This document shows, piece after piece, positions 1 through 49,900 of a DNA stretch of 64,000 nt. Under the pieces are notes generated by a model. The model was not told the DNA's origin. It made no database searches and saw only the letters and a list, made by a program, of their open reading frames with translations. The position numbers were made by a program, and so were the translations under genes. Origin of the DNA: Phalacrocorax aristotelis (lineage: Eukaryota > Chordata > Aves > Suliformes > Phalacrocoracidae); assembly GCF_949628215.1 (NCBI RefSeq), contig NC_134278.1:106497277-106561276 (forward strand). Reading direction: 5' to 3'. How positions within the stretch are numbered: the first letter of the stretch is position 1; every line of letters begins with the position of its first letter.

Positions 1-15565
<15,565 letters not shown>

Positions 15566-24100: not shown

Positions 24101-26410
24101 ACACAAACTCAAACCTCTTTAGAAACCCAAGAATCTACATGGAGACAGGTAGGAAAGAAAAGGAGGCTTATAAAGGCAGCAACTGCTGCGAAGTTTCTGA
24201 CAGCACTTATAAAAGAGTGGGCAGAAGAGAATAAAACTGAATCACTGCCACAGAAGTTACACAGCTTGGCTTTCTAAAAGAAACGATAGCTTAGAAGTAA
24301 ACGCTGGCATAGAAATAATTTAAAGCGTCACCAAAGCATAGCCAGCATGTCAAAACTGAACAGGAAAAATTCCTCCATGCTGAAACAGCAAAAAAGAAAG
24401 TGGCTTTGCTTTGGCCTTTTTTTTGGTTGGTTGGGTTGTTTGTTTTTTTTTTTTTTAAGAAAAAGCAGTCTGACTCATCTTTCTACCATCAGAGTTGGCA
24501 ACTACCAAAACTCTAAAAGAGGAACAGACCACATCGTATTACTAAAAGGTCCTTTGCCTTTTTCATACTAGCACGGAACAGTGAAGGAGTTTTTACAATC
24601 TTGACCAATCTTGAATACAGCAGTAAAATGCAGATTATTTCAACTGAGTCTGAAGCTTCCGACCAATGCAGTTCTTTACAAGTGTGATCTCTGTGTTTCC
24701 CCTTCCTATTTGCTTTCTATCTTCCAAATTTCTACTTTTCTTTTCCCCTCCTAAATTTTCAGGAAATACTATCTTTACATAAGATATAACCTAGGGAATG
24801 GCAAGGATGTTAGTGTCTTCTAAGAGCGTGTTTGGGATTAATCTTCTTAAGAGAAGTCCACAGATAAAAGCTGCTTATCTGGGCAAGATGCTTTGGCATC
24901 ACTAGCTAGAAGATACCAAAGCAGCATAAATCAAAGCACAATCCCCATGAAAAAAAACGGAGGGGGGGTGGGTGTTGCTTGTTTATTTTTTCCCCTACTG
25001 ACATTTCAGAACAGTGCTTCCACAAAAAGGAAACCATCACCAGGTTAAAAGTCAAGGAAATTCCAGTTTTTACGTATGTGTTTTCATGTTTTATGTTCAT
25101 AAGAATGTAAGGACTTGCTTTTCTGGATCAGGGCTTCAGTCTCTAAATTTAGAGTTACATCTCTGCAAGAATTGCAAAATGTTTCACAACAAAAAACAAG
25201 GGAAAAGACAGGATTCTAGCATCTTCAGAAGGTTTCACGCATCAAAAATATTAAAATTATCCCTTGAGCAATGGTACAAATCTTCAGATTTACTTAAAAC
25301 ACCATGGCAGACACAGACACAGTGTGTCTTCTGTTTGTTCGCTCTTTAATGAGCTCCCCACACTTTGACCACTGTACACCAGATATTCTTGTCAAAGCCA
25401 ACTACCCCCGACTCCTTTATCCAGGTGTTCCTGAATTGTGGTTCCCAAGGAGCACACGCACGCGTGTTATGCTGGAGTCCAGCTGCATAACCAGACCTCA
25501 CTGGCAACGCACCTGGAGGGTCACTGTCACTGCCTGCCTCGGCATCATTCCTATGGCTCAGACTAAGATATGCTGCGCTTCAGAGGAAGATTTGACATAC
25601 AGTTCACAGGATCAGAAAGGCAAGCCAGAACTCCAGAGTGTTTAGGCCTAGGAACTGCAACTCCAGATATGGGGGGTAAACTATCTACTGTGAGCTGCCT
25701 TTGAACAGCTGATCCAGATAAAAGAAACAGAACCAGAGACCTTTCCTGCTTCTAGTTTAGGACAAAAAAATCATTCAGCTACCATTATTGCTCTGGAGTA
25801 TTTTACTGTTACACTTTCTACTGAGAGCGCACAATAAACTGTCCAGAGAAAGATCATATCTCAAACTCTAAATATATTAGTGAATGAACTGTCTAAAAAT
25901 CATTTCCGTAAAAGCATGTTCTATTTACAAAGGTTAACTTGCTCTTTAGGACAAGTAAAACCGCCACTGGAAAAAAATATACATACAGAAATGCCTCATC
26001 TTTCAAAAGACATTTACAAATACTCTGCTTTGCTTAAACTACTAGAAACATTAAGACATTTGAAACTAAGAGTGTGTTCTGCATGCAGTTAGGATAGAAA
26101 TCATGTTATTGGACTTCAGTGTGTCATTTCTTATCACTGTCAATGACAGTGTCTTAGGCTCTTCTGAAAACACCACAGCCTGGCTATTACCTTAGGATCT
26201 CAAGAGGAGGACACAGATCTTCATTAACAAGTTATCAGTTACTCTTCATTTTGCCATTAAAAAAGGACATCCCGATTGTCTTCTCAGCAGGAGAGTCTGG
26301 TCTCGTCAAGTTTGGCGTCCTTTTTTCCCTGAGTTTCCCTTTAGTGTTTTGCTAGGCATGATGATTATTGGCTTGGTATATTTACAAGTCCTTGGTCAGC
26401 ACTCCTCCCA
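18108..26410. other. intergenic DNA between convergent genes
   Basis: This is AT-rich non-coding sequence between the presumed end of RD3 and the stop of the SR/Lys-rich gene, including that gene's 3' UTR (left of 26411). I could not fix its poly(A) site; a - strand AATAAA (TTTATT on +) lies near 24980. A run of 14 T lies at 24443-24456. No gene is recognised. Confidence 0.5.
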
Positions 26411-26461
26411 TTATAAGGCAGAGTTCAGAAATTCAAGGAGTTCTGCACGATTCCGGTCTCT
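26411..26461 (-). CDS. SR/Lys-rich gene, terminal coding exon 6
   Basis: The acceptor CTGTTACAG is followed by RDRNRAELLEFLNSAL and TAA (stop at 26413-26411). The charged, then amphipathic end continues exon 5 in phase 0. It lies 2.1 kb from exon 5, and the minisatellite begins 59 bp from its acceptor side. Confidence 0.85.
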   Translation of the reverse strand, partial: RDRNRAELLEFLNSAL

Positions 26462-29400
26462 CTGTAACAGCAGAAAAGCAGAGGCAGTGGTTTAACAGAC
26501 CTGTACTCAGTGGACTGAGGCTGCATAACCCTGCTTTCTGTGGGGCTTTCACGTCTCAGGCCGCATAACCCTGCTTTCTGTGGGGCTTTCACGTCTCAGG
26601 CCGCATAACCCTGCTTTCTGTGGGGCTTTCACGTCTCAGGCCGCATAACCCTGCTTTCTGTGGGGCTTTCACGTCTCAGGCCGCATAACCCTGCTTTCTG
26701 TGGGGCTTTCACGTCTCAGGCCGCATAACCCTGCTTTCTGTGGGGCTTTCACGTCTCAGGCCGCATAACCCTGCTTTCTGTGGGGCTTTCACGTCTCAGG
26801 CCGCATAACCCTGCTTTCTGTGGGGCTTTCACGTCTCAGGCCGCATAACCCTGCTTTCTGTGGGGCTTTCACGTCTCAGGCCGCATAACCCTGCTTTCTG
26901 TGGGGCTTTCACGTCTCAGGCCGCATAACCCTGCTTTCTGTGGGGCTTTCACATCTTGGCATGCTGCAGAGCAAATGCTACCACATTCAAACAGCTCGAT
27001 ATGACTAGCTACCAGTCAAGTGTGAGTGCCTGGTAGAAGCACAAGGCAGTTGGGTACTCAGGAGAGACGCTATAGGAGACAAGCTGTCACTATTTCGTGG
27101 TACATTTCCTAAGTGGCTCCCCATGGAGGCTCCATTGGGTTGTCACCATGTCACTCATAGCCTGCTCAGGAGGGAACTCACTAGCAGAAGAGATACAATT
27201 CTCTGGTGTCTGAGGCAACTTTCACTGTACATGCAGCAAGTCTCGTGCTTTGGGAAGTATAATTTTTTTCTAAGCATAAGCAGCAGCTTGCAGCATAGCA
27301 GAAAGAGAACCATGAATTTAGGTTCTTTCTTTACATAAGAGATGATCCAAACAGTCAAAAGACTTGTTCCCAGTGCTTTTAAAAATCACAATTTATAAAA
27401 CAATTATTGAATCTTAAAATACTGTGAAGAATGGATGTTGTTCAATTCAGAAAGTTCATGACCAGAGACACCAATCAAAAAAAGGAACACACAGCAAATA
27501 TTGTGACAAGGAGGTTACTGGGGTAAGGCTAGCATGCATTCAGCATTAACAGTGTCCAATGACTGGACAAGAGGCAAGGGGCACAAGTTAGAACACAGGA
27601 AGTTCCACCTCAATATGAGAAGAAACTTATTTACTGTGAGGGTGTCAGAGCAGTGGAACAGGCTGCCCAGGGAGGCCATGGAGTCTCCTTCCCTGGAGAC
27701 ATTCAAAACCCACCTGGATGCGTTCCTGTGCCCCCTGCTCTAGGTGTCCCTGCTCATGCAGGGGGGTTGGACAAGATGATCTCCAGACATCCCTTCCAAC
27801 CCCTACCATTCTGTGATTTAATGCAAACTTCCATGCCACAGAAAGAAGATAAAATATTTTTCATCAAATTTAACTTGGAATGCTCAGTTCTGCTTTGGTA
27901 GCTATAGAAGGAACTGTTATGGCTGAGTCAGAATCCACCAAACTAGATACCTCAGCAAAGTAACACTTTTAACACATACTGACTAGTACCAGAAGCCCTC
28001 TGCAGATTACTCTAAGGTGTGGAAACTGCTGAAAAGGGTGAACACATTAAAATGCAGAGTCCAAACACCCATAGCAACAGCACAAAATGCTATTCATGAT
28101 ATCCATTTCCCTGGTTATCTCAGCAAAAACATTTGTCTGCTTTGAGAGAATGTGTGAGCACATGGTCCTAATACTACTATTGTCTTTTTTTAATTCCTCT
28201 CTAAATAATGGCTAGCCTTGTGTGCATTAGTAAAACACAGTAAAGCAGCAATTACCACAGCTGATCACAAGAGACTGGAAGAAGATGAGGACAATTAAAA
28301 ATAGTGCAAATTAAATCAACAGAGAAAGGCACAAATCAGCTAAACATTACGAACTGAAATTCTAAGAAGTTGCACAAGCATCCTTGGGTTTATCCAGTCA
28401 TGCCTCAGTATTCCAAGCCCACTCATAACACAAAACCTGCCAAAAGAATGAACTAAAATTTCTCAGATGGCATCATAGCCACATTAAAAGCTACACTCAA
28501 TTTACAACTCTGAACGGTAAGATCTACTCTTCTACAAGAGACTACTATTAGAAAACTATTAAGAGATACAGTATTTTCCCTAGGGATATATAGACCATTT
28601 TAACTCTTACCTCTTTATCTTTCTTAGTCTTCTTTATTCTCATCTTAATTTTCTTTCCTGTTATCATGCTGTAGTTCTCATTCTTCTTTTTGTTTTTAAA
28701 GAACTAAAATGAGATCACACATTAGAAAGACATAAGCTTTGCTTTGTTTTATAATGTTACAAGTCTTAAATAAAATTACAGACATAATCTTTTATACTTC
28801 CTAACTGTCCAAAACAATAGAGATAGGTTTCTTTTCACTGATGACAAAACTAGTGGTGTTATGAACATTTTTATGACAGGCCAGATTAAGTGTTTAGATT
28901 AGAAGTATAAGGGGACTTCAGACACACACTAGCGTACCTTGGAAAGCTGGACAGGTCCTGTTTTCTCTCTCTTTTTCTTCTTCTCTTTCTTTTTCTTCAT
29001 TTTGTTCTCTTTTTTCCTTTTCTACAAGTATACAAGGCATATACTCTTATGCTTACAGACTCAAGGGCAAAATAAGGGAATCCACAAGTAGCTCTCAACA
29101 CCCCGGCTAGTCAAGACAGCCACTACTGCTTGCCCTGACCACCGCTGGATAGGTACTATCTGAACTACACAGAAGGTAACACAGTAGGTTTAGCAACCCT
29201 TGAGATCCTGAGAAACAGAAATGGTCTGATCCCCTATTTGCTCTTTTAATGTAACCCCAATATACAAAATCACTGAACAGAAGGTCCTGATAAAATTAAA
29301 AAGAAGAATTACAACAGGAAGACTATACTACACTCTCACTGACTAGAAATTGCTTCTTCTGACAAATTCTATAAAGTTATCAAGATTCCCCACGTCTCTT

Positions 29401-32400
29401 TTCTTCAGAGGCTACTCTAAACACAAGCTGGGCTACCAACAATTGGCAAAAGGAACCTTTAAATTATTCCTCTGTTAGTATACAGTCAAGTATATGCCAG
29501 CTTATCAGTTCACCTACTGTAACCCTAAAAGCATGATTCAGATTTACATAGCCTCAGGCAAAAGCATTACGTCTTACATGGCATTTAAGGTTATTGAAAT
29601 ATGAAGAACTATTTTCTGTCTGTTAACTACTTCATTCTCTTTGTAAATGTTTACCTTTTTGTTATGTTTTTCTTTTCTCTTTTTCTTTGATTTAGACTTC
29701 GGAGAATCTAAAATTAAAAAAAAAAACCAAACAATAAAACAAAGCAAAATCAAACCCTGTAAGTTTAGCATTTTGAAAAAGGCATTTGGTTTTAAGCTAA
29801 GGCACATAGGAATGTAAAACATAAGAGGAGAATGCCTTAATTCAGCTATATATATGAACACTGGTTGAAACTAACCTTGAGAAAAGCAACATGTTAACTT
29901 ACTGCCACTTACTGGTCTAACATGGAAACTGAAAATACCTGATTTACTCAATGATTACTTATATTAATATATTTTATTAATAGAGACAATACTTCTATCT
30001 TCTTTCTGCAGCTGTGCTCAACATATTGCAAGTATGTGTTTTATAGCCAGCAATCCTGACTCTCAAAGGACACAACAAAAACACTGTTGGGGCTGTCAAA
30101 CCACTGAAAATATTATCACTGCTCATGGCAAATGTAAAACTTTTCATACTTACTCAGCTCATTTTCCAACTTCAAGGCCTTTAGTAAGTTTTGTAAAGCA
30201 GAAACTCAAAAGATCTATAAGCCAATCATAGATTTTAAAGATTACACTGTGACTGGTATGTGAGGAAGTAGATTTTGAAGCACCAGCTTTGACTACGGGA
30301 CTGTAAACCTAGAAAGACTGTGAAACAGCTTCCTAGTCTTCCAACAGACTGTCTTCAAGCCATCAGCTCTGCAGTTTCTTTACAAGAAATTCCAAGCAAA
30401 AGATAACATTATAGGAACATACCAGAGCACAGCCAGACTCAAAAGTTAGAAAAGTCTAAGGTAAGACTGCCCAAGCAAGCCTTGAGGAGGCCATTTTGGC
30501 CTCCTAATGACAAATGCAGCACTAGCATGTCAGAAGAAATGATGAAAATATTAATTCTATGACCACATTCAGTCGTGATAACAATGGATTGGACTAAACG
30601 CGGACAGGGAATGTTATAACTGGCCAGAGGACTTTTACAAATGTTTGCCAACATCAGGAAGGAGGTACATTCACAAACACTGGGTTTCCTTCCGCTTTGA
30701 AAATCACTATGCTGTGGCGAACAGACTCTTGCCCAGTTTTATCCCTTTGCCCACATCTCTTCCAGACTCAGTTTTTATCTCCCACCATCCTAGCCACAGT
30801 TCTCATGACCACAAACCTTAGCAGAACTTCTCTAGAATTCTGCACTGAACTGTTGACTTCCTAGACTAAGCCAGGACATCTTTTCCTCCTGTTCACTCTT
30901 TCCGAGTTGCCATCCCTCACCATCTGGTCTCCCCAGTAGCTCAATCTGTTTCCGTACTCGGCCACCCTACCCCACTAGTTCTAGCACTGTTCGCCTGCTT
31001 GTCTCCTGCCTGAGGGGAACCCCCTTCCCAGCTCCACCTAACCAGCTGCATGCCCAGTTTCTATATCCCAATGTTTCTTTTTCCACAGCAAAGTGTGTCC
31101 TTTCTGCATTCAAGTTAGCTTCATTTTCCATATAACCTATGTTACCAGCAAGGTTGGAGAAGGTGGGTGGGGCATACAACTCCAGAGATCAGGATTCAGT
31201 TTCCCCCACTCTCCTCTCAGTTTTCCCCAGCCACTGCCCAGTGTCTAACAGACAGAATTACAGCTGCATTCACTAAGTAAGAAAAGAGGAACACAGATTA
31301 AAAAAATGCTGGAAGAAATCTCCATTCGGCTATCCCAAGGAATGTTAACTTCACTCCTGCTATACCCAACACATGAGACTGGGGCAACCTTTGTCATTCA
31401 AAGTCTTTAACTGCAGGTTAGGCAAGCTATTCCACTGTTCTGCTGCTAGGATGTATTTTTATTAGATCTAATTCAAACCCTTCCTGTTGCAATTTAAGAT
31501 CATTATTCCTTTCTCTGAAAGTCACAGAATGATTTTTCGCTCCCTCTGCACAGTGGCAACTACCCACACCTATGTATCTGTCTTAGCTCAATTACCTCGC
31601 ATCTTTTCTTGTCTAGATGGAGTAAATAGTTGTTTAAACATGCCCTCATAGGACGTTTTTGCTAGATCATCTGCTCTCCCCTGTGAATGGGAAAAGAGGG
31701 CATTTTTACCTGTGAAGTTTTAGCAAATCTCTGAGTATGCAGACTGACAACTTGAGCCTAATTCAGAATGATTTTTAAACTCAAATACATATGTCTTGAC
31801 ATCCCTCCCAAAGATGAGCCAGAGAGTACGCCAAGCACGTTCGCACAGTCAGTGCCTGACATGACAGTTTAATTCTTTTTAGAAGTTTTAGAGTGTATCA
31901 CATGTGGCAAAATTCATTCAAGGAGGGCCTCCCCCCATCAAATGTACAAGTTCATAGATTTGAACATTTTCAGAATTTCTTTGTGTCAGATACATAGAAT
32001 CAAGCCACTGAAGTGTGGGAACAAGTAATATTTCCACACAGATGTAAATCTGCTTTGAGGGAAGCTGAATTAAATAATTGTTAAACTGTGGGATACACAG
32101 TCACAAATATGAGGTCCTGTACTAGATGTTGAAGTTTTCAGCTGACCCTGATGTTAGACTTTTCCTCGGGTGAACTCTAGTTCATACTAGAGTTCTTCCC
32201 AATCATAGTAAAAAAGGATAAAATACACTTCAATGTTTAGCCTGACACCTTTTATTATAAACTGAAAATGTAGTCACTTTTCCTGCAGTAAGAGCAAATA
32301 TTTTGATACAGAATATCAAAACAATGCAGTCTTGATACAATCAGCAATACATTCCCTTCAATGTCACAAGTTACACCCATAGAAAAAAATATGCACTTAC

Positions 32401-33396
32401 TCCCAGACAGTATCTACCCCAAGTCCTCTAAGTAAGCAGCAGCTTAGCATGGAAAGTCTTAATCCTGCAATGCTTGCGTGTGTGTTTCCATTGAATTTGG
32501 TCACCGGTATTAATAAACTTCATGTGAGTCCTCAAAGTTAAATGCTTAAAACATTAAGACCAAAGTAAGACTAAACCAAAAAACCCCAATTCTGGTCTAG
32601 ATAGACAGGCGAAGTAGAAAAAGATCTGTGTGTTGCAAGTGTAACGAATACAGAGTTTTAAATATGTACAGCGTATTGTTAAGGTAACACTTCTTTGAAC
32701 GGCAGTTTCTATTTTGAAGTTATTTAAATTAACAGAAGAACATTGCATACTGTGCATCAACAGGTACCTTAGCACAGCAACAGGAAAGGTTTATGAGAGA
32801 AACACTCTGAAAATGCAGTATTGATATTCTACACTGGTACTTTGTGGTTGTTTACACATTTAAAATAAGCTTTAAATGTTTCCAGGAGTGCTATCAAAAC
32901 CAGTAAACATCACACATAGCCATGGAGGTAGCTTACCTCTGCTACTTGAAGACGACGACCTTGATGATGAGCGTGAGGAGGAGGAGGAGGAGGCGGATGT
33001 AGTGCTAGAAGACGATGTGGATGAAATGGATGATGATCTGCTTCTACTGCGTTTTCGTTTCCTTTCTTCTTTCCCTTAGGATAACATAAGACAACAGTGA
33101 CAAGCATGCTAGTAACTATGGTCTACCAAAATGACCCTTCACAGAATTTAAACACAATGAACCCCTATTTTGAGAGGCTGGTTGTGGTTTTCTCCCCTCT
33201 TCCAGTGTGCCATGGTCTATTACTGTTAGGAAGTGACAATACTCAATACCAGGGTCAATGATGGTAACTGACATAAAGGATAACACACCTAACACCACAG
33301 CATGGAAAGAGATCAGCAATGCCTACCTTGGACTTTCAGCCCTTCTTGTGAAGCTGCACATGGTGTCCTAATTTTTTCATCCTTCCCGTTATCCAT
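26411..33396 (-). CDS. SR/Lys-rich protein, 162 aa, six coding exons (probable LINC00467/C1orf97-locus orthologue)
   Basis: Join on the - strand: 33396-33327, 33074-32937, 29707-29655, 29021-28938, 28703-28611, 26461-26411 (489 nt, 162 residues plus TAA). Every junction is GT/AG and every phase fits. Residues 1-23 start MDNGKDEK. Residues 25-32 are basic, and 33-69 are almost only Ser with spaced Arg and a few Thr (RS-domain-like). Residues 70-115 are Lys/Arg/Glu-rich and end GPVQLSK. Residues 116-162 contain YSMITGKKIKMRIKKTKKDKE and end in RDRNRAELLEFLNSAL. The composition suggests a nuclear, disordered protein of RNA-processing type, but no catalytic domain is seen and I do not know its function. 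A GC-rich promoter lies to its right. Its place between RD3 and TRAF5, in TRAF5's orientation, matches human LINC00467 (C1orf97), so orthology is inferred from synteny, not from alignment. Confidence 0.85.
26521..26960. repeat. minisatellite, 40-bp unit x 11
   Basis: Units begin at 26521 and every 40 bases to 26921. Each contains CCGCATAACCCTGCTTTCTG followed by TGGGGCTTTCACGTCTCAGG. The first unit has one changed base near its start (CTGCAT), the last diverges at its end (ACATCTTGGC), and the nine inner units read identical. The array sits in the last intron of the SR/Lys-rich gene, just upstream (in transcript sense) of the final acceptor. Confidence 0.97.
27545..27822 (+). mobile_element. 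CR1 LINE 3' fragment
   Basis: The wording is typical of the CR1 3' end: frame remnants reading NMRRNLFTVRVSEQWNRLPR, then 'ctgctctaggtgtccctgc', 'gggggttggacaagatgat' and the terminal 'accattctgtgatt'. It is a 5'-truncated copy lying antisense in the last intron of the SR/Lys-rich gene. Confidence 0.88.
28611..28703 (-). CDS. SR/Lys-rich gene, coding exon 5
   Basis: This 93-nt exon lies between CATTTTAG and GTAAGA. It encodes FFKNKKKNENYSMITGKKIK and continues MRIKKTKKDKE (residues 116-146). It reads as the core of the conserved C-terminal region. Confidence 0.88.
28938..29021 (-). CDS. SR/Lys-rich gene, coding exon 4
   Basis: This 84-nt exon lies between ATACTTGTAG and GTACGC. It encodes 28 residues: a Lys-rich stretch starting KRKKENKMKKKKEK and a C-terminal part TGPVQLSK that is less repetitive and so probably constrained. 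Confidence 0.85.
29655..29707 (-). CDS. SR/Lys-rich gene, coding exon 3
   Basis: This 53-nt exon lies between TTTTAATTTTAG and GTAAAC. It encodes DSPKSKSKKKRKEKHNKK (residues 70-87). The first codon is completed by the last G of exon 2, which supports the join. Confidence 0.85.
29708..32936 (-). other. SR/Lys-rich gene, intron 2
   Basis: This 3.2-kb intron holds no recognised gene. It contains a perfect hairpin at 32172-32195 with nine-base arms GAACTCTAG and CTAGAGTTC and a six-base loop. Confidence 0.7.
32937..33074 (-). CDS. SR/Lys-rich gene, coding exon 2 (Arg/Ser tract)
   Basis: The acceptor is ATCCTAAG and the donor GTAAGC. The split Gly24 codon is restored across the junction. It encodes KEERKRKRSRSRSS followed by a Ser-dominated run with Arg at intervals (residues 33-69). 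The opposite strand shows an artefactual Asp/Glu-rich frame caused by the Ser-codon repeats. Confidence 0.88.
33327..33396 (-). CDS. SR/Lys-rich gene, coding exon 1 (start codon)
   Basis: On the - strand the acceptor TCTCTCACTAG ends at 33399. Two bases later comes ATG at 33396-33394, encoding MDNGKDEKIRTPCAASQ and so on to residue 23. The donor is CCAAG|GTAGGC at 33327/33326. The real transcript start must be in a non-coding exon further right. Confidence 0.85.
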
Positions 33397-33479
33397 ATCT
33401 AGTGAGAGACACAAGTACATTCGATAGCATCATTGCCAAAAGACTTTGGGAGGGAGAAACCACCAGAGCAGTGCAGAGA

Positions 33480-34014
33480 CAGAAGAAACCGGGGAGGCCG
33501 CCTGAGGGCAGCCCCAGCACCGCTCCCATCCAACCACACCACGCTACGGTGCGGCGCACGGTTAGGCTCTCATCCTCTTGCATCAGGAACCGGGGGCCAA
33601 AACCCTGTCTTCGTGTCATCTTCGATGACACCGTCAGTACGGGCGCAGCTGGTTTCGCCACAGCGGCCCCGTGTCAGGCCGCCGGCGGATGGCAGGGTCC
33701 GGCCTGGGCCGGCCGAGGCGGTCGCCTGCAACCGCCGGGAGGGCCCCGAGCCCGGGGACCCGCGTCCCGACCTGCCCTACACCGGCACTCACTCACTCAC
33801 CCACCGACCCACCCACGGGCTCACGGTCCGGCACCGGCCCCGCCGGCAGCCTGCGCCCAGGGGGGCTCCCCCGCCTCCCGGGGCCGGGCCGCCATTTCCC
33901 GAGAGGCATCGGCGCCCACGCCCTCCCCGCGGCCGGGCCCGGCGCGGCGGCCCGCAGGACACCACTGCCCCACCCACCCCGCAACCGGGGACACGGAGGA
34001 TGACCGCAGCCCCT

Positions 34015-34065
<51 letters not shown>

Positions 34066-34300
34066 CCGCTGCCGCCGCCTCCGCCTCCTCCTCCCCGCCG
34101 CAGCCGCGCCCCGGCTGGCGACCCGGAAGTGCTGGCGCGTCCCGTTGCACCGCCCGCCGCCGCTTCCTGCGCGGGAGCCGCCGGCGGCGGGCGGGAGAGC
34201 GGCCTGCAGGCCCTGCGCGGCCGAGGGCTTCCTCCAGGGCCCGGAGGCCAGCTCGGCCCGGCGCCCCCGGCGAGGAGAGTGGGGAACGCAAGCCCAAACT
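33480..34300 (-). promoter_or_regulatory. CpG island, probable promoter and 5' exon of the SR/Lys-rich gene
   Basis: The GC content and CpG density are very high compared with the flanks, directly upstream of the first coding exon. A strong - strand donor (GTGAGT) lies at 33800-33795 and could end a non-coding first exon starting near 34100-34300. Long Pro/Arg-rich frames on both strands are by-products of base composition. Confidence 0.65.
34015..34067. repeat. tetranucleotide repeat (CTGC)13
   Basis: Thirteen uninterrupted CTGC units on the + strand (GCAG in the sense of the SR/Lys-rich gene) are followed by GCC-rich imperfect repeats. The repeat lies inside the CpG island, and if the donor at 33800 is used it would be in the 5' UTR. 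Confidence 0.95.
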
Positions 34301-34369
34301 AACACGCACTTAAACTCCGACCTGAGCTGCACGCTAAGCTTGAACGGGTGTTTTGAAGCCTATGCTGAA

Positions 34370-35200
34370 CCTTGCGTGATAATTAATTTAGCCTTAAACG
34401 GAATTCCAATTAAAGTTTACAATTTATTGAATAGAGACAAGCAAGCAGCGCTGGATGCAGGGGGGATCCTTCCGCCTAACGTGCATACAGTCATACAAAA
34501 CTACAGGGTTTATATTCAGTTACTTAATAACAATTAGTAAAAACACGCCTAAGTTTACACTCATTGGTCAGTGATAAGCATCCCACTTGCCGTTGGTCAG
34601 CCGTATTTAAATTAGCCACGCTTGCCATGTAGATTAGCACGCATGCTTTTTACGGGTGTGGGGGGGAAGTCTTTTTGGTCCTGAACTGGGTCGGTGGTCG
34701 CAATCTCCCCCTGCCGGAATTACCTTTCCCCCAGTTTCCATGCTTCAGCACCTTCTGAGCCAAGAAGTTCCCTGTTATCACTACTGGCTGATTTGTGGCC
34801 TTCCCTTATCTTGGCACTCTCCTTTGTAGCAGGATGTTTCCACTGTTAGTCCTTGAAGCTCTACTGAGTTGTATTCTTTTAGGAGGCTTCTTGTCAATGA
34901 AGCATTCATTGCTAATGCCCTCTTGTCTGGCCTAAGCATTATTTATTATCTTGTTAAAATTCTCAGGTGTTAGTTTCTATTCCTAACTAAAATTCTTTCT
35001 TAACAATTAACTTAACAAATCGCCAATCAATATTCCAACCATTAAGACAGTTAACAAGTCAATTGAATGGCCCTCGGTTACACAAGCACAAGCAGAACGG
35101 TCAAATGTTAGAGGGTCACACTTCACCATGTGGCCCTAGCATTGTTCCATATTGACACGAATCAGATGAACACATTTTACACTTGGCTGCAACTTAAGCA
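34370..35200 (-). mobile_element. putative solo LTR of an endogenous retrovirus
   Basis: On the - strand the order is that of a U3-R-U5 unit. A long promoter-like segment is followed by a TATA-like AATATAAA (34516-34509), then about 85 bases later by an AATAAA poly(A) signal (34428-34423), and then an A/T-rich tail which could end in CA at 34377. It is an AT-rich block between two CpG-rich blocks. I could not find a convincing target-site duplication, so the ends are approximate and the family is not named. No internal retroviral genes are present. Confidence 0.45.
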
Positions 35201-35229
35201 GAAGTTAGTACCCCTGTACCCCTTCGGAA

Positions 35230-35730
35230 AGCTAACTGCTCCTGCCGCAGGAGCCTGTCCCGAACGAGGCTTGTCCCGGCTTCCCAGGACCCGCAGGGCG
35301 TCCTCCCCTCGCTGCCTGCCCAGCCTGGGCCATTGCCTTTGCGTGGTGCTGCCCTGCCGTTCTCAGCTCTGCAGTTAGCCCTGATGGGCAGCGGCCCAGT
35401 GCACGGGCTTCGCACAGCTCCCAGGGACAGCTCGGGGCGAGCCACGTCCCGCTGTGGCTCCTGCAGTGGAGACGCGCCAGCCACGCTTCCCCCGCCAGCC
35501 CGTAGCCGTGCGCCGGTAGGCGGACGCAGCCCTCCCGCGCGTGCTGCCTCGCGCGTGCAGACGCGTCAAGCAGAGTTGGCTGTGAGGGAATGAAGGGCGC
35601 CGGAGCCCTGCCCTGGTAGGGCCTCACGTCCCGCTCCCTCCAGCAGCGTGACGGCTGCTCTCGCACGGCCCGCAGCAGCGCAGCGCTAAGGCTGTCCGTC
35701 ACCTCCACCCGAGGTGCTGCATGCACGGAG
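35230..35730. promoter_or_regulatory. second CpG-rich block
   Basis: GC- and CpG-rich sequence with several CGCG motifs (35520-35570) lies right of the putative LTR. A 164-codon frame on the - strand has no recognisable domain and is probably a base-composition effect. The block may be the displaced distal part of the SR-gene CpG island or a separate promoter. Confidence 0.4.
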
Positions 35731-36244
35731 ATGGGACATCCCGTGGCACTCAGTGGGTGTCTGAGCTCTCACAGAGCAACGGGAGTCAGATGCTAACTTT
35801 TCTCCTGAGCTGATTTCCAACACTTTGGGCTTAAGCCCACCAAGTTTTCCATTCCCATTTTTAAAATACCATATTCTCAGGCATGAAGTAATCATGGGAT
35901 ACTGAACAATTCCACTTTTACTCCTGACCTGAAACAAATCTGACCTCAGCTGAACCCAAACCTGGTCCAAACAGAAATAACATCCTGGTTCGATTCCAGT
36001 GGATCCTCAGACCTTATGGCTCTTTGTCTGATCTAGTTTAGCTTGCAGTTTACTTAACTTCTATGCGCAGCTGCTTTACAATATTAAAGTATAAACCAAA
36101 ATACCTGTGAAGCACATTGATTCTTAATCTAAAGCAGTTTGGGTTTTTTTTTTTTACTGTAAACAAAGTTTTGGGTGCAAACATCCAGTATTCCATATCC
36201 TTCTACAAAGTCTGCTTAAAACCAGCCAAAAGGAATATATGCCA

Positions 36245-39301: not shown

Positions 39302-39879
39302 TCACAACTCCTCCAGATCGGTTAAATCCACAACGACTTTCAAAAACAGAGTGTCATCTCTGATGTAGGTGTTCTTTGTGTTCTCCAGGACCGTGTGCGG
39401 CACAAAGCGTGGACATCCAGAGGCAATATTCATTTCTCCGTCCGGCCTTTTGAAACTGCTGCTATTGGGGTCAGCTCTAAAGACTTCCACAATGTGATTT
39501 TTTTTCCCACTTTGGTCCAAAAGCATAAGTGTAACTTTTTGCTTGAAAGGCCACAGCAGCAGCGAGTCAAACTCTCCTCTCATCACAACAAAGTAGAGAG
39601 AGACGTGTGTTCCCTTTCCTGAGCCGTCCCCGTTCAGGTAGGCTCTTGCGCATAACCTGTACCCACAGCGGCTGGTGTAAAAGGGCTGGCTGAATATGGA
39701 GAGGACACGGCCTTCCACTGCTTCTTTTTTCTTCATCTTGTAGTCCGTGATTTTCCAGATTAATTTCCCATTGTAGCACGTGCCTTCCAAAAGCTTAAAT
39801 CGTTCTTCATTTTTATTTAGCTGTACTTTGTGAATATTGATCTGGAGATCGTGTTTGCTGGACTGACCTTCCAAAACAA
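39302..39879 (-). CDS. TRAF5: TRAF5 terminal coding exon 10 (MATH/TRAF-C domain)
   Basis: Residues 362-553 follow the acceptor TTTTTTCCTCCAG. The TRAF-C hallmarks are visible: FKLLEGTCYNGKLIWKITDY, FYTSRCGYRLCARAYLNGDG, LYFVVMRGEFDSLLLWPF, DPNSSSFKRPDGEMNIASGC and the C-terminal FLKVVVDLTDLEEL. This part trimerises and binds receptor tails. Confidence 0.97.
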
Positions 39880-42800
39880 CTGGAGGAAAAAAAAAGACAC
39901 ACACACACTTCGTAAAATAAAACTGTCAGAGCACTGGATATAAAGAGTAACCAGACTTGAGCTGGCAGAACTGAACTACTCAAGCCCGAGTACAGGCTGT
40001 TAACTGGTGTTACTATAGCTGTTAACTTTTTAAAATCGTAATTGCAGCTAGCAGCTGAATAAGGAAAACAAGTAACTACAAGCCAGATTTAATGCCTGAC
40101 TATGGATAGTACCACTGCCTCCATCACAGTGCACCAGCCTGATGAAGCCCAGCTCTCTGGCACTACAGAGCCACAGGAATTCAGGAGACATTGTGGAGTA
40201 GTGGAAGGTGGGAGGACGCAGCGCGCACCATCATGGCTTGATCTGTGAAAGCGAGAAGAAGAAAGCCCTTTCTGGCTAATAGCTGCAACTGACTGACTGT
40301 AGCACCAGAGCCTCTACTTAGCCACCAGTAAATCAGCAAAAACCCCACACCTGCACAGAAAAGAAACAAGTCCCAGCATACCCAAGCGCTGATCGTATGT
40401 CTCCATCAGGGCAATTTTCTGCTTTACATTTTCAATTGTGTCAAACAGGGGTCGCAAATCTAATTTGCTTTGTTGCTGGTTTGCCATCTGTATTAGCTGT
40501 TTGACTTGCGATTCCAGGCGTGCAGACTTATCCAGGTGACTGGCCAGAGCCTTCCCAGTTCATGCCATTGGAAGAGGGTGGAAGTGGAGACAAGAGACAT
40601 TCATAAGATCAGCCATTTCTTTTGAAATAAGATAAAGAAGCCTTTAGCATGTCAGCAGTATCAACTATATGGCGCATTTCAAAGTACTCTGCTGGCTTAG
40701 GAACCTATCCAAATGCTCCTTCACAATTAATTTGGCATTTAGTGACTGAGAAGCCACCCCTTACTCAGATCCATTCACACTGCATCACTTCATTCAACTG
40801 ATTATTCAAATTTACACCTGCGTATTTACCATGGGGATCTGGCTAGGAGGATTTCTACAGTGCTTTTTTGCCCAGATCAGACATCCAAACTTCTTTATTG
40901 GTTAAAATAAAAAGACAATACTGTATTGTGAAAAAACAAGAAAAGCTTGTGAAGTGTCTGGGAGACAGGATTTGTTATTGCCCTACTATTAATAACAACT
41001 ATTACCAGATAAACACATTTAAGGATACAAGAAAGCACTTGGCCAAAAAACATAAAATTAACGTCTCACCTGCGTGCTTACCATCAAGTTGCTATTTTTA
41101 CCAAACAGTTGTGTAAACTGCCTGAATTCTTTCTCGCACTTTTTAATGGCCTCTGCTAGCTGTTGGATTTTAATCTCTTTACATTCCAGACTCTTATACA
41201 GGTCAGATATCTACAGATGGAAAAAAGAGAGTACGAACACTAAGGCACACCAAAATAAATGATAAAATTAAAACATATGTGACTACATAGGAGAAAGTGG
41301 AAAAGTTTACAATGCAAAGCCTCTAACTTTGATATAGCACTACTTAATTCACAATTCGTGGATAAGCACTGGCAAGTACTGAACATAAGGTAGTCATATT
41401 CTTTAATAGATCTGTGTGGCAACAGGTGCAAAGAGACTCATATCTCTCATTCCCATCATGATGATCCAGCTATTGGGGGATAATACATACTTACATGTGC
41501 ATGTGTGTTTCTGTGTGTATGTATATACTTTTTTTTTCCTTCTCTCTCCTGAGGTCTAACCAGTAAAAGAGATGAGGCAGTGACGGATGCTAACTCCAAA
41601 GCCAATTGTAGCACTTTGGGGCATTTATTTTTAGCATAAACAAGCAGATAAGTAAGTCAACCATCAGTTTGGATGCATTTGCATTAGCAGGATCGGGCAT
41701 GTACCCAATGTCACCTGCTGGGAGCCACAGAAATGATTACGAGTGGAGAAGTGCTTGCAACTGGCTCTGCACTACTCCATGCTGCCTCCACAGAGGGGTG
41801 ACTTGGGCATCTAAAGGCTCGTTTTCAGAGAAACCTGACTGGTCACTGAAACTTTAAAATGCTCTATCTCCAAACCTCGTACCCACTGTAAGCAGAGACC
41901 AAATGCAAATGAGATGAGCGATGGCAACGAGCCTCCTACTGTGCTTGGTGGAAGATATACGTGCCTGAGCACAGAGGGATTTCCATCCACTTCTCTAGAC
42001 TTCTCTAGAAGAGCTTATTCTGACTTCTGAGGTATGCAAAGATGATAAAAACAGTGTTTAAAATGTAGCTGGGCTAAACCAGGCAACAAATGCAGAGCCT
42101 CAGATCATCCTCCAACCAGCCAAGAACCGCTGAAGAATGCTTGTTAAATGTGACTTACCTGTTCTTCCAACTGGGAGTTCTTGTCTAAAATCTGCAGCAT
42201 ATGTTCCCTTAGGGCGCTGTTTTCATGTTCAGCAAGTTTCCCTCTTTTAACCTTAGTGAGGTAGAGGGTGAAGTGAAAGAATGAAATAAGAAGATACACA
42301 GATTTTTTTAAGCTGCTACTAAAAAATTTATTGATGCAAATGTTTAAAGTGTCTCCTCTGTGCTTTGAAAGTGAGGGAATAGCAGTCCTGATTCCCTTGT
42401 ACAGTATCTTAGCCAATACTAGAAATGGCTGTGAAAGCACAAAAATTCGTTATTTTTATTAATTACTTTGATTGGTTTGGGAGAAGAATTCCATCCCCAG
42501 TACAAACAAGATCTATAAAACAGTACCTTTACAAGACAGCCATACTGCTTATACGGGCAGTCCACTTCTGCCTCGGGGCACACGGCATGGTGCTTTTCAA
42601 TCTGCATATATTAACAAAGAAATTTGTAATGAAGTAAATATTAAGCAACTTGTCACACTGATAAAATCTGAATGCCTGCATAAAGGGTGAGTAAAGGCCA
42701 ATGTCATGACACCACTGATAACATAAAGAGGAAAATGAGTATTCAGAGTCAACAAGCAAGCCAGATATTTTCCTGATACTGCAAAATGCCAATACTTTCC

Positions 42801-45800
42801 AGTGACCAAACACCTCACTTGTAAGATGGGACATATATCCCTTTTAGGACCAAACAAAGAAAATACTTGAAGCAACAAAGTTTTATTGGCATGGGCCAAT
42901 GTAGTCTGCGACGTAACTTTCAGTTTTCATAAATGTGTCTGACCTGATGAATCCCAATATATGCAAAAAATAATAGTACCTCCTTTTTCAGAATTATTTG
43001 TGAACAGTTTTGGAGACAAGGCACAGGGTAATCAGGACAGTCATTTTTCTCATGATTCTGGGGAAAAAGAAACAAAACAAGGCAATGGTTTGCATTTTTG
43101 TAAAGCAGTATATGTAGAGGAAGCTATGAAAAAGTAATCCCAAACATAGACATGCAAGCCCTGTATCACATTGCTGTTCATAAGAGAGCAACAGTAACTG
43201 GAATTATTTAGGGCATATTTATTATACTTTCAACTACTCAGCCAAATTTTGTTTCAGGAGTTGTTAAGCCCCATTGCAATGCTGGAAACTTTTCACTCAG
43301 CAACATTAAGAGGAAACATGTGCTATGGATTCCCAGGGAATGCTTTATAATCTTACCTTTATATTAATTAACACCACATATTTACTACAGTACTGACACA
43401 TTTCTTCTCGAAATTTACAGTGCCTGCTCAAATGCTCTTTCAAGTCTTTCCGAAGAATTTGATCACAACATCCATCATTAGTGCATTGCACGCTTTCAAA
43501 CAAACACTGCTGAAGATGCTCCTGCAACATGCAACAGCAAATTAAACCCCAAAGTATTTAATTGCATCTCCAATTGCCCAACAGACTCACAGAAACTCTC
43601 GGCACTTTGCTAACAAACAAAACTCCAAATACTCTTTCCTCCATAAGCTTTCCCTTTTTTCATCCTCAAAACGAAAGTGAACGCAAAAATTTGGAGAGTC
43701 CTTTGTACGACTGCCATCTTTCATTCAACTGATATACCAAAAAAAGACCCAAACAGCCAGTATGTCTTGGCAAGTTTTCTTTAATCAACCACCACGTAGC
43801 GCTTAAGCATACAGAAGGTATGTATAGATGCTGTGGATATACTAAAGCTACATAAAGCAAATGGTTCATATTAAACAAATAATCTAAGGCAAAGCTGTAA
43901 CAAGCTAACAGCCATAATATTTTGTGCTTAGCATTTGTTACTTAGCTAAGTCAATCTTTGTACTTAAACAACATCACTCCAATAACTCGGAAGTCTGAAG
44001 ACAATCACTGGAATTTAGCTTATCATAAAAACACAGGGTTTGCATGAAAATCAAAGGCTTCAAAATTTGATCAAGCAAACTAACCTGATATCGTCCCAGA
44101 ATTATTTTTGAACTGCAGTCAGGAATGTTTTTGCAGAACACATGCAAGTTGAGAACTTCTCTTTTACAGCAGTTGTCTTTGAACACCTGTAAAGGAAGCA
44201 AACCAGGCTTCATGTGCAGTCACATAGGATGTCATAAAGAATATAAAAAAGCAAAACATCACAACAAATCTTTTAAGCACACAAGTGTAGACTCCATAAT
44301 TGTGAATATGGTTCTTGGTAATTCATACTGGAAATGTATTCTAAAAATACAAATTAAAACATATATAAAGTCTCTAATAACCATGGGGTTTTTTCCCCAT
44401 ACAGTTATTCCACAGATGCTAATCCATCCCACAGCCAGCAGAGTTAGTAGCTCAGGAGCTATAAAACTGCTGCCAGAGCCTGCCTGAATCTAGAAGAAAG
44501 CAGCTGGAGCTAATGGGCCCCAAAGGCCAAACCAGCTCTGTGCATGCTCCTCCGATGTTCAAACAGTGCAGCACGCCTTTGGGACGGAGACAACGCTGAG
44601 ATATCCCTTCTACAGACTCTGAAAAACAGCACCGTTCCCAGTTGTGTATGCTGAAGCAAATTAAGCCCCCAGGGCAAACTTTCAGTCTTATTTAGAGATC
44701 TTCCTGTAAGAAGCATTATAAAGCTGCCCACTGTTGCATTACTGCCATCAAAATTTGCACGAAGTAGAAGGCAGCAAATGAAAAACAAAAATCACATGGA
44801 CGGTCTGATTACAATTTCCTATGAGAAGTAAGAGGGAGATAGGAAGGAGACATTTGATTTCACTGGAAAATTCATTCTGGCAGGACCAAGTATGTAGCAT
44901 GCTTTCAAGCCTTGGCATATAAATATGGACAAATGAACCCATTACAAAAAAACCAAGCAAACAAACAAACAACCACCCCAAACAAAAAAACACCCACAAA
45001 AAAAAAACCACAAACCATACCACCTCAGTAGATTGCAAAACAAGAAGCATGAGCTTATCTCTTCCTCTAAAAAGTTACCCAAAAGTAAATTAAGTCTTCA
45101 GGGTTAATGAGATATAATGGAAGTAGTTAAGGCAGAAAATTATAACCAAGTGAAAACAAAGACAATCAAATAAACAAGATGACCCAGCAAGATGGGACAT
45201 TAAAAAGGCAAGTCAATAAGCTTTCCGCTAAAAAAAACATCTGATGACCAGGGAAGATTTAAAACTTTGTGAGTGTCTTCAACACTTTACTGGAAATACA
45301 GAAGGCTAAAATGAAATAACTTCAGAACATGAGGTATAAAATAAAGCTTTAGCTATACACCCATACTTCCTTTCTGGGAGAGCATCCCTGAGTACACTGC
45401 TTCCCTTAGCATCATTTCAGAGACAAACACTGCTCTGCCCCTGAGGCCTAATAGACTAAGAGCCATCTTGTTCTCAGCTGTCTTGCCTCTTCCATGCAGA
45501 TGTTGACTGCTGAAGTAGAACTATAGTCACTTACCTCATGCATTTTTATTGTTTCTTTGTCAACAGGACAGGTGGGTACTGCATTCAACTCTCTAGATCA
45601 AAAGAAGAGTCCTGTTAACCCACAGAAAATTTGATTTATTCTATGAAATTGGGCTATGCTAGAAAAAAGTGCTTTGAAAACTCTTTCGTCTGGCAACTAC
45701 ACAGTCAAATTCTGCCCACAGCTCAAAGATGGCATTAAGCTGCAACAGTGAATATGTGACAGAAAGCAGAGTTTGTCCTGCGAGTGTTAATAAGATGTTT

Positions 45801-46921
45801 TTTAATTAAGAGGACTTTGTCACTCTCTGGCCGTCTGCTGCTCGCAATGTCACATCTTACAAAATCCCACTGTGTATATCAAACCCAGCCTTTGCCCAGC
45901 GCAAGCAGTGCACTCCTCACTACAGCAGTAAAAGAAACCTAATAGCTCCTGTCTTAAAAGGCTTCCAGAAGTCCTACAATAAGGGATGGGAAAACACTTA
46001 TTGAGGCAGTGCAAAAGGGAAGCAACTCAGCCAGAGAAAGCAGCAAACATGAAGCATCTAATATTCATAAAAGGTAAATGCCAACATCCATCCATATAAA
46101 CAGGCTCCTCTGCCCCCTCCCCAGGCCTAATCCTGCCCTCAGGTACACCAAACAGTATGAAATGTATTCCCAGACAGGTCTGCGGGGTAAACTTATTTGT
46201 ACCTGCAGATAAATCCCAAGCAGATGGATACCAGCAGCCTTGTGATCTGACTGTAGTATCAGGTAATACTAACATCAGTTTTCTACCTCCACTAAAATCA
46301 AAGAAATTATACAGAAGCAAATGAAAACAGCTTAATCTAACCACCCAGGCCACTACCGTGAGACACTAATGCAACAAATTCAACTGAACAGCACAATGCT
46401 AGACAGACTGACCGAAACAGCATCTCACGCAAAAGTGCTTAAGCTTACATCAACAATATCTTTATGCTGACTTCCCTGCAGTTACCAAAGTATTCCTCGC
46501 CAGCACCAGGTAAGGTCTTTAAAGACACCTTTAAAACACTGAGCACACAGTCATTTCGCTCAACAGTCTTTCCATTGACTCCTTCAGCACTTTATCAGCT
46601 AGGTACTATTATTATGGCACTCACTGCTGATTTATAGAAGGCATTGATTTCTTTTTAGGAAGGGGAGTACAGGGAACTTTCAGATGCAAGAGAAGCTTGC
46701 ACTGACCTCAAAGAAAGAATGCACTGCTGGCAGAATCGGTGTCCACATCCCGTCTGGTGGGGATTGCGAAGGACGAGGTGGCAGTAGGCACACTTGTACC
46801 GGTCTTCTAAGGTTTCAACAAATTTGTAGTCAGCATCAGGCTCAAAGTCCAGAGAGACAGCGCTAGCAGAGTTCTGGCGCATGAAGATGCTGGAGGGAGC
46901 AGCAGGTTCGTCACAGGCCAT
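39302..46921 (-). CDS. TRAF5: TRAF5, TNF receptor-associated factor 5 (553 aa, ten coding exons)
   Basis: TRAF5 is a cytoplasmic trimeric adaptor that binds TNF-receptor family tails (CD40, CD27, CD30, LTBR and others) and feeds NF-kB and JNK signalling. Exons on the - strand: 46921-46707, 45592-45535, 44186-44085, 43521-43357, 43057-42980, 42601-42527, 42251-42159, 41210-41082, 40550-40382, 39879-39302. All join in phase to 1662 nt, 553 residues plus TGA (human about 557). RING: C44, C47, C59, H61, C64, C67, C80, D83. TRAF-type zinc fingers occupy about 95-245, for example C109/C115/H127/C131 and C194/C198/H210/C214. A coiled coil spans about 245-355 and the MATH/TRAF-C domain about 397-546, ending LTDLEEL. 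The segment linking exons 8 and 9 is about four residues shorter than in human. The start ATG sits five bases inside its exon, so the promoter lies upstream, probably in the CpG island near 60 kb. Confidence 0.97.
40382..40550 (-). CDS. TRAF5: TRAF5 coding exon 9 (coiled coil)
   Basis: Residues 306-361 start ALASHLDKSARLESQVKQL and end ETYDQRL. The last base (G) completes Val362 in exon 10. The donor is GTATGC. Confidence 0.93.
41082..41210 (-). CDS. TRAF5: TRAF5 coding exon 8 (coiled coil)
   Basis: Residues 263-305 start ISDLYKSLECKEIKIQQL, with heptad-like spacing, and end FGKNSNLM before GTAAGC. The end is shorter than the mammalian equivalent. Confidence 0.92.
42159..42251 (-). CDS. TRAF5: TRAF5 coding exon 7 (start of coiled coil)
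   Basis: Residues 232-262 contain HENSALREHM and end KNSQLEEQ. The acceptor CCTCACTAG-like site (CACTAAG) was chosen because it keeps frame and gives the family length between GC-V and HE-SALREHM; AGs a few bases downstream would break the frame. Confidence 0.9.
42527..42601 (-). CDS. TRAF5: TRAF5 coding exon 6 (zinc finger)
   Basis: Residues 207-231 start IEKHHAVCPEAEVDCPYKQ. They close a finger (H210, C214) and give C221 and C228 of the last one. The donor is GTACTG. Confidence 0.94.
42980..43057 (-). CDS. TRAF5: TRAF5 coding exon 5 (zinc finger)
   Basis: Residues 181-206 read NHEKNDCPDYPVPCLQNC and then SQIILKKE. They close one finger (H182, C187) and open the next (C194, C198). Confidence 0.94.
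43357..43521 (-). CDS. TRAF5: TRAF5 coding exon 4 (zinc fingers)
   Basis: Residues 126-180 start EHLQQCLFESVQC. They complete one finger (H127, C131), hold another (C138, C143, H155, C160) and begin a third (C167, C170). Confidence 0.95.
44085..44186 (-). CDS. TRAF5: TRAF5 coding exon 3 (zinc-finger region)
   Basis: Residues 92-125 start VFKDNCCKREVLNLHVFC and end IILGRYQ. They provide the Cys pair of the first TRAF zinc finger (C109, C115). Confidence 0.95.
44945..45012. repeat. A/C-rich low-complexity tract
   Basis: A run of AAAC/ACAAAC units and poly(A) lies in TRAF5 intron 2 (between coding exons 2 and 3). No further function is visible. Confidence 0.8.
45535..45592 (-). CDS. TRAF5: TRAF5 coding exon 2 (end of RING)
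   Basis: Residues 72-91 read RELNAVPTCPVDKETIKMHE. They supply the last two RING ligands, C80 and D83. Asp as the final ligand is usual for TRAF5-like RINGs. Confidence 0.95.
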
Positions 46922-46926
46922 GGGAG
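46707..46926 (-). CDS. TRAF5: TRAF5 coding exon 1 (start, most of RING)
   Basis: The acceptor TCCCAGTGCAG is followed by CTCCC and ATG (46921-46919). Residues 1-71 include SLDFEP and the RING core CAYC...CGHRFCQQC. The donor is GAG|GTCAGT. Confidence 0.95.
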
Positions 46927-49900
46927 CTGCACTGGGAACCAGACACAGGAAGAATCCCTTCACCGGCAGCCACACCACCTCGGCTACCACTTGCAGCAGG
47001 CTGCCACTTGCGGGAGGGTTGACATGTGCAGCAGGGTGTGACAGATTTCGGAGGAAAGCACAGTGCCAGCTATGGAGGAACAACAAAACACTCAGAGAAC
47101 CACAAAACAATCATTACACAACAAAGCATCAAAGCACATTTCTTTGGAAAAGAGTTTCACAATTTGAAAATTGTCCTGGAGAATAGAGATTTTTATGGAT
47201 TTTTAAAATTTTCTTGCAGCAGTGCTTAGTCTCAAAAAAACTGCAGGAGTCACAGACAAGGTTGGGGAGAGCAGAGACCAAGTCTTGGCCCTAATGTCTG
47301 CCAGGAAAGTCTACACATAATGCAGAGCCCGCCCACATGACTTCACAAGTTCATTGCACTGGTTCATGCTTTGTGGTCCACAGCAAGGAGCGTACAAAAA
47401 AAAAGCAGCAATGGGATTTTACCTTCAGTTTAGGTGTTACAGGAGTCAAAGCCTCTTAACTTGACATCTTTCTTCTTCCCGTTGATCACTCATTTATAGC
47501 AGTAAACTCTAATCCATTTTTTCAAAGTTTTACTTATTTACGTGCAAGTTGTTGGCTATATTAATCCTGCCTGAAAGAGGTGGAAAAAAGAAGAAAGAAA
47601 AGCAAGATTGCAATCAGCAGCGTGACATAAGTTTTCCTCACAACCTACCAAAGCTCCTACAAAGCACAGGAATGCAATATTAATTTTCTAATAGGAAAAC
47701 AAGCAATGTTTGCTTCTGGCCCTAAGTCACAAACTTTGAGATTTGCCACTGGTCCCTCAATCTTGCAGTAGTTTTTCTGCAAGTAGCTCAAGACCTAGAG
47801 CCACTCTGGTTTTCATTTCTTGCGGCTTTGTACTCAGAGGACAATTTTTTCCTTACAGGATGTGTACAAAAGCACACAATGGAGCTCTCAGATCGTTCCA
47901 TAAGTGAAGGGCTCTATTTTATAGCTGTGCTGTGGGATGCTATTTCTCCCCATGTGCATCACCCGCCCTGTCAGTCACTCAAGTCACTCTTACTGGCATC
48001 AGCACCTCTCCAAGAGCTCTGACTCAGCTCCTGTAAGGTCACCAAGGGTATCTGCTGTTTTCATGGGGAAGCAGGGCCAACACATCACCATTAGTAACTT
48101 TACGGCTGGCATGAAATAGTATGCCAAGTACTGATACACTGCCCTACCTCCCTGCTGCAATGGATTCCTGGCCCACAAAAGCAGCGATTAGTACTGTGCT
48201 ACACACAGCTCAAGCACTGCCACAGACCACCTTAGGCTTCAGAAAGCAACATCCATTTTCCTTTTGACTTTAATATCCCATACTGGGCAAGGAAATCCTG
48301 CAGAAAGATAAAGTACCTGATTCAAAAAACAAGCCAAAGCACTTAACCAATGAAAGTGTGTTTCACAGCAAACATTTATGTGCACCTGTAACTTAGCACC
48401 CTTGTTCATGGTTGTACACAGTATTTACCTGCCAAGCTTGTGAGAGCCTCCCTGCCCTCCATCAAGCTGAATGTCAGGCCTACTCCAGTACAACTGATCA
48501 TCTAATGTCAGTAACCCACAGCGATATGAGCCCTAATCATATTCCAGGCATAAAGGCTTATTATTCCAACTGGAGTTTGCGAATTACCCTGTTTGGTCCC
48601 TCCCAATGAACAGCCTTCTGCTTCAAATCAGAGATGATTGTCCATGTTGCTCCTTTCATTTTTAAACAGCTGTCCTTTTCTCCTCTGAAAATGGGGTTCC
48701 CGGTTCTCTGACGCTTGATAACGAGCAATTCTATTTTCCTCACATCAACCAGAGATGCAGCCCAGGGGATTATCCGCCTTGTGCCTGGACTGCCTCAATA
48801 GCAGATGCCAGCAGCAGAGCACACCTGCTGCTTCAAAGGCAGATGGAGAGCTGTTGCCGTTAACTTCCACAGCATAGACTACCTACAGGATGAATTTCCT
48901 ATGAACTCATTCTGTCGTTGGTTGGAGAGAACCCCGAAACACATTTCCCTCCCCTCTTTTATTAGTGCTCTCTCCCATTTACATAGCATCCAATTTCCTG
49001 AGTCCTGTTACACTGCAGGACCTCCATCATGTGATGGTACGGTTTAGCAGGTTAATGCTGCACTGTGTAAAAACACATTAAAAAAAGAATCCATGTTCTA
49101 CCCATTTTGCCTTTAAGGGTCTACCTTAACTCCAGAAGTACTTCCAGCTGGGGTGAGCAATGTTACAGGGGTTGTAGGCGAGAAAGTTATGGGATGCATA
49201 AGAAGAAACACAGTCACCAGCCCAAAAACCCATCCAGAAACTCCTTCAGAAATCTTGCTGCTCATTAAATCAACCACATTAATTCCCATCTCTTTCTTCA
49301 AGGAGCACTCTGCTGTGGTACAATGCCTTCCAAATCTCTTGCTGAAATGAGAGCCTTTATCTCCTTAAACACCTTTGTAACACACCCAACCTAGATTCCA
49401 TTCCTAGAAACAGAGACTCTTGGCATCTCCATGAAAGCACCTCCTCCACCTCAGCCTCACCCAGGAGCATGTGGCATAGCTGAGGGCACCTCAGGGCACA
49501 GGAAAGAGCACTTCAGGTGAAAGGTGAGCCTGCCAGCCCAGAGGGCAGAACGGAAACCTCTGGGTGCCCAGAAGACCGCGGATGTTTGCCACTGCTGCCA
49601 GCCTTGCGGGAGGTTTGCTGTGGCGTTTGCAGCTGTTTTGCTGGAGGAAATGGGCTGCCCCAGGAGAGGGCCTGTGGATGGTGATGTTTCACCCAAGCTG
49701 GAGAGATGCCCATGTGAATCAGCTGGGAAGATGGGCTCTGAGGAGCCAAGAAACAGCAGCCCTGTGCCAGACCTACCGCCGGCCAGCACTTGGTGGGATG
49801 CGATCCAAACCACTGCAGGCGGCATGTAATTCCCGTCCCAGCACCCACTGGTGACTCAGGGCAGATTGCAGAAGCTCTTCTTCCACTTCTGGCTTCCAGC

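Follow-up and report, generated by a model that had tools for sequence, protein, structure and literature searches.

The subject here is a locus on the minus strand of a stretch of 64,000 nucleotides (nt) from the bird Phalacrocorax aristotelis (contig NC_134278.1, positions 106,497,277 to 106,561,276; "the window" below is this whole stretch), where six short exons join into a model for a protein rich in serine, arginine and lysine. We give a probability of about 0.7 to the reading that this locus is a real protein-coding bird gene, orthologous to human LINC00467 (C1orf97); its transcription, its translation and orthology over the whole length are parts of this reading that we infer. If it holds, a CpG-rich promoter downstream of TRAF5 would drive transcription towards RD3, and the transcript would be spliced to an mRNA for a protein of about 162 residues, which by its composition would be small, basic and largely disordered. 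Its layout would be a short N-terminus, a Ser/Arg tract, a Lys-rich tract and a C-terminus that is possibly helical.

The six-exon model and its coding signal

The model was re-derived exactly as an earlier note on this DNA had described it, with canonical splice sites and matching phases: five GT-AG introns join six exons (incoming phases 0, 1, 1, 0, 0 and 0) into 489 nt including the stop codon (TAA), that is 162 codons, in a frame free of stops and frameshifts (Table 1). Every exon is indeed shorter than 140 nt, the longest having 138 nt. Scored with approximate splice-site matrices, the five donors all fall in the top 2.6% of the GT sites of the minus strand, and the six acceptors range from the top 1.1% to the top 16% of its AG sites.

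As for the coding signal, it is found in exon 2. The share of Ser and Arg in the model frame of this exon, 78%, is matched by none of 5000 dinucleotide shuffles, in which the best open frame averages 27% and never exceeds 58%; the 802 shuffles without an open frame are entered as zero in this average. All six serine codons occur in the coding sequence (CDS) of the model (TCA 10, TCC 9, TCT 6, AGC 4, TCG 3 and AGT 2), and so do all six codons of arginine; the tract therefore does not derive from a simple DNA repeat. This non-random Ser/Arg coding supports a coding gene. Beside the model frame, exons 2, 3 and 4 have one further open frame each, and exons 1 and 5 have none.

The comparison with the human RNA rests on published LINC00467 oligonucleotides, with overlapping ones joined into longer pieces; 13 pieces were compared, and one printed oligo, the 3' cloning primer, stands outside the set. 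A 27-nt piece aligns to CDS nt 190-212, spanning the junction of exons 2 and 3 (208|209), with a score of 29, which is reached by 0 of 2118 genomic tiles and, per 1000 shuffled CDSs, by 5 (dinucleotide shuffle), 2 (codon shuffle) and 2 (Ser part only). A 42-nt piece, which assumes one more overlap of 5 nt, scores 35, a value reached by 0 of 2118 tiles and by 2 of 1000 in both shuffles of the whole CDS. The target site of a small interfering RNA (siRNA) against LINC00467 aligns to exon 4: four of 1060 tiles reach its score, all four being the locus itself, and none of 997 tiles outside the locus is as good. In an ungapped scan of the window, the two best places for this siRNA are exons 3 and 4, with 16/19 each. 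Among 22 control oligos directed at other human genes, the best has its score reached by 106 of 1060 tiles. Five of the 13 LINC00467 pieces come out below 0.03, namely the siRNA site, a probe, two single Ser oligos and the 27-mer that incorporates one of these two. The Ser pieces lie in order over exons 2-3; for the Lys-type siRNA, no coordinate in the human RNA is printed. We read the similarity as real but short, and from these alignments the human RNA seems to keep at least the sequence of the Ser-rich and Lys-rich exons.

Position is the other point shared with the human gene. The locus lies between RD3 and a TRAF gene, in line with the earlier note, which named TRAF5: RD3 and TRAF-type domains flank it, and these genes (RD3 and one of TRAF2/3/5 type, called TRAF5 because the name fits the position) are the same as those reported around LINC00467. 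According to the literature, human LINC00467 is on the forward strand of chromosome 1 (PMC9563794), with RD3 immediately downstream (PMC3929584) and TRAF5 as a neighbour (PMC9541002). In the window, the TRAF gene and the serine/arginine (SR)- and Lys-rich gene are on the minus strand and RD3 is on the plus strand. A comparison of orientation with human would take TRAF5 as lying on the plus strand there and RD3 on the minus strand.

Table 1. Exons of the model, its presumed flanking signals and its neighbours, in window coordinates
Feature	Position	Strand	Content or evidence
Coding exon 1	33327..33396	-	MDNGKDEKIRTPCAASQEGLKVQ; model frame is the sole open frame
Coding exon 2, Ser/Arg tract	32937..33074	-	Ser+Arg 78%; its 3' end and the adjoining part of exon 3 are matched by a human LINC00467 piece
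Coding exon 3, Ser/Lys-rich	29655..29707	-	Lys/Arg/Glu within shuffle range (348/5000)
Coding exon 4, Lys-rich	28938..29021	-	Human LINC00467 siRNA site aligns, CDS nt 300-321
Coding exon 5, C-terminal part begins	28611..28703	-	Model frame is the sole open frame
Coding exon 6	26411..26461	-	RDRNRAELLEFLNSAL and stop; acceptor in top 1.1%
CpG-rich stretch, probably holding promoter and 5' untranslated exon	about 33400..34600	-	Just upstream of exon 1
AATAAA, candidate polyadenylation signal	24982..24987	-	About 1.4 kb past the stop
RD3, two coding pieces, downstream convergent neighbour	7311..15562	+	Pfam PF14473, 2.7e-40 and 8.6e-07
TRAF gene (TRAF5 by position), upstream, same orientation	39302..47110	-	Pfam TRAF2/3/5 RING 4.1e-10, MATH 1.4e-47; coordinates are the ends of two open reading frames scanned

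Human LINC00467: shortened gene or fossil

A question arises on the human side. Is LINC00467 a coding gene that has become shorter? Or is it a true fossil, transcribed and no longer translated? The earlier note had taken it as non-coding or degenerate, and a plain non-coding status is not borne out: the label is out of date because LINC00467 is reported to encode a peptide, ASAP (PMC9198549, PMC9541002), of 94 residues (PMC11499885), and polysome association and detected peptides have been reported as well (PMC9634437). These reports favour the explanation that the gene is the same and no conversion took place, human LINC00467 being a shortened, translated orthologue with ASAP as its product and its label as a long non-coding RNA (lncRNA) a matter of annotation; the human Ser-tract piece favours it too, since the frame corresponding to that of the bird is open there (PSSSSSSSGSQTDS). 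A mitochondrial peptide, however, is unlike what one would expect from an SR/Lys-rich protein, and we place this explanation somewhat short of even odds. The original report of ASAP is said to be that of Ge et al. 2021.

A true fossil, the conversion that the earlier note had proposed, would mean that the ancestor coded as the bird does and that the frame was disrupted later, among mammals or primates. The long annotation of LINC00467 as non-coding agrees with this, and lncRNAs that descend from lost coding genes form an established class (PMC5577775); the ASAP and polysome reports (PMC11499885, PMC9634437) speak against it, and the main text of the paper on that class (PMC5577775) makes no mention of LINC00467. 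We regard the fossil as unlikely. A coding-to-lncRNA conversion at LINC00467 is a possible event, and a human gene that became shorter and still codes is no less likely. It may be, and we offer this tentatively, that LINC00467/ASAP is what is left, in shortened form, of a conserved amniote SR/Lys-rich, probably nuclear protein, and not an lncRNA with a new micropeptide; the reported mitochondrial role of ASAP would in that case reflect a change of function after C-terminal loss, or it would need re-examination.

Returning to the bird gene as orthologue of LINC00467, what would it change? A gene that is the subject of many cancer papers as a non-coding RNA, and in one line of work as a micropeptide source, would gain an ancestry. 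The Ser- and Lys-type stretches under the published primers and siRNAs would be old coding exons, and experiments would have to address the full-length protein. There would be either one more lncRNA derived from a coding gene or one gene fewer on the lncRNA list.

As for other names of the gene, mouse A130010J15Rik is, we presume, the orthologue of human C1orf74 and not the counterpart of LINC00467. The literature naming C1orf97 or A130010J15Rik has no bird gene in any title, and the terms H1orf97, C1orf97 homolog, C1orf97-like and C1orf97 protein were absent from the literature searched; a bird annotation may exist in gene databases. Further papers were also drawn on (PMC3726457, PMC10494854, PMC7171408, PMC8170392, PMC8194349, PMC6856745, PMC8346510, PMC8113855, PMC9275949).

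Gene ends, chance and local repeats

The gene could also be real and the model wrong at its ends, with the start in a CpG-rich exon or with a different last exon. Just upstream of exon 1, the CpG-rich stretch (33401-34600) has a GC content of 0.51-0.81 and a CpG observed/expected ratio of 0.80-0.88 in 400-nt windows. Two of the five donors tried there give in-frame N-terminal extensions of 37 or 33 residues; the best donor, at 33800 (score 4.71), permits the longer one, and the true start is therefore uncertain. At the other end, exon 6 is a mere 51 nt behind an 11-copy minisatellite, and the C-terminus is touched by no human LINC00467 oligo. Still, the model is free of stops and frameshifts and the acceptor of its last exon is among the best of the strand (Table 1), and wrong ends seem to us rather improbable. 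In addition to the AATAAA of Table 1, an ATTAAA is present at 25350.

A number of results weigh against a coding gene orthologous to LINC00467 and are best seen together. The earlier note had argued that a chain of this kind would not arise by chance, and the argument fails as it was made: open chains of six exons and at least 450 nt, with a splice-score sum equal to or better than the model's 37.1, occur in 40 of the 54 control stretches (7.4 kb each), which were taken from both strands of the window and avoid the locus on its own strand. The locus itself contains a different chain that scores better (43.3 versus 37.1), a sum reached in 17 of the 54 controls. This test is rough because the control stretches overlap each other, some of them hold real TRAF or RD3 exons, and the matrices are approximate. 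Splice sites and frame alone do not lift the model above chance. At the protein level, the Lys/Arg/Glu content of exons 3, 4 and 5 is reached by 348, 3065 and 659 of 5000 shuffles and is not beyond chance, and a Pfam profile search with the protein gave no match above the cut-off; the last 55 residues alone gave 0 matches in Pfam.

The human comparison has its own counterweights. Eight of the 13 LINC00467 pieces come out above 0.4, with no match to the locus; they would fit untranslated or human-specific parts, and equally an absence of homology there. When the Ser part is shuffled in place, 22 of 1000 sequences give the 42-nt piece at least as high a score. Low-complexity sequence makes up part of the matching pieces and is absent from the control oligos, and in the ungapped scan other places in the window fit the Ser pieces equally well or better. 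The probe matches QEGLK in exon 1, at a score reached by 24 of 1060 tiles and, outside the locus, by 20 of 997; this is out of order with respect to the human primer pairs, and this match was discounted because these pairs place the probe stretch downstream of the Ser tract. The identification of the locus with LINC00467 is supported by its position and by the short similarity to exons 2/3 and 4.

Alternatively, the locus may not code in the bird: it would be a conserved RNA gene with exons that are open by accident. This would fit the equally good chains in the controls and the missing protein family match; the Rfam search of the window returned 0 matches as well. Against it stands the Ser/Arg coding of exon 2, with all six Ser codons in use, and we consider this explanation quite improbable.

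The minisatellite in the last intron (26518-26956) has 11 copies of a 40-bp unit with 99% matches and ends 57 bp before exon 6, and the same intron holds a stretch resembling an interspersed repeat, CR1-like by eye (27560-27820, minus strand). Inside the CpG-rich stretch, a (CTGC)n / (GCAG)n array of 13 perfect copies (34015-34067) is possibly variable and transcribed. A second GC- and CpG-rich stretch, at 35200-35800 between the gene and the TRAF gene, has a GC content of 0.69, a CpG observed/expected ratio of 0.76-0.84 and no assigned gene. Farther away, at 61295-62104 on the minus strand, there is a reverse-transcriptase open frame of 269 residues (PF00078, 2.4e-12), again CR1-like by eye.

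Relatives and known systems

The genome (1.279 Gb in 352 contigs) was searched with the last 56 residues for a second copy, and none was convincing among the best candidates, the only ones scored: two of the four matches are this locus and two lie elsewhere. A Lys-rich open stretch on the same chromosome (L003:1501-1644, minus strand) shares 38% identity with the part of the C-terminus that spans the exon 5/6 junction (E 0.64); closely bounded by stops on both sides and lacking a Ser tract upstream, it was rejected as a paralogue and taken as chance, a very old broken copy being a conceivable alternative. Another candidate, L005 (E 6.7), contains a stop and looks like chance. The one match of the C-terminus in the PDB (E 1.4) was rejected, and six peptide words from or like the C-terminus, two of them variants representing possible relatives, were not found in the literature searched.

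What might such a protein do? Known proteins with SR and Lys tracts tend to reside in the nucleus or nucleolus and to contact RNA or splicing bodies. The bird protein could be of this kind, its phosphorylatable SR tract and its Lys tract recruiting it to RNA or splicing bodies and its C-terminal helix binding a partner, a proposal that we consider possible rather than probable. Exon 5 alone, modelled as a single sequence, gives a helix over residues 6-30 with a mean predicted local distance difference test (pLDDT) value of 83, a result that says little by itself; the C-terminus may form a helix that binds a partner.

Nuclear proteins of the SR-rich kind, of which SR-25/ARL6IP4 is an example, share with the bird protein the Ser/Arg and Lys low-complexity tracts. 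The SR-25 Pfam model, in contrast, scores 7.8 bits against a cut-off of 40 with a query that had one extra residue, and with the corrected query it is unlisted at E <=1. Classical SR splicing factors carry an RRM beside the RS domain, whereas the bird protein is without an RRM (Pfam, E <=1).

Human LINC00467/ASAP differs from the bird gene in being annotated as non-coding, in a peptide of 94 versus 162 residues, and in that the C-terminus is not in the printed oligos; the two are alike in their neighbours, TRAF5 and RD3, and in the Ser-run and Lys/Arg-type stretches of the RNA. As for the coding ancestors of mammalian lncRNAs, they are an already known class (Hezroni et al. 2017, PMC5577775). 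LINC00467 is unlike its members in having no mention in the main text of that paper and in that its loss of coding in human is putative. It is like them in that a probable bird coding gene stands at the site of a human lncRNA, and the intact frame in one lineage that marks the class is present in the bird model, with its translation predicted.

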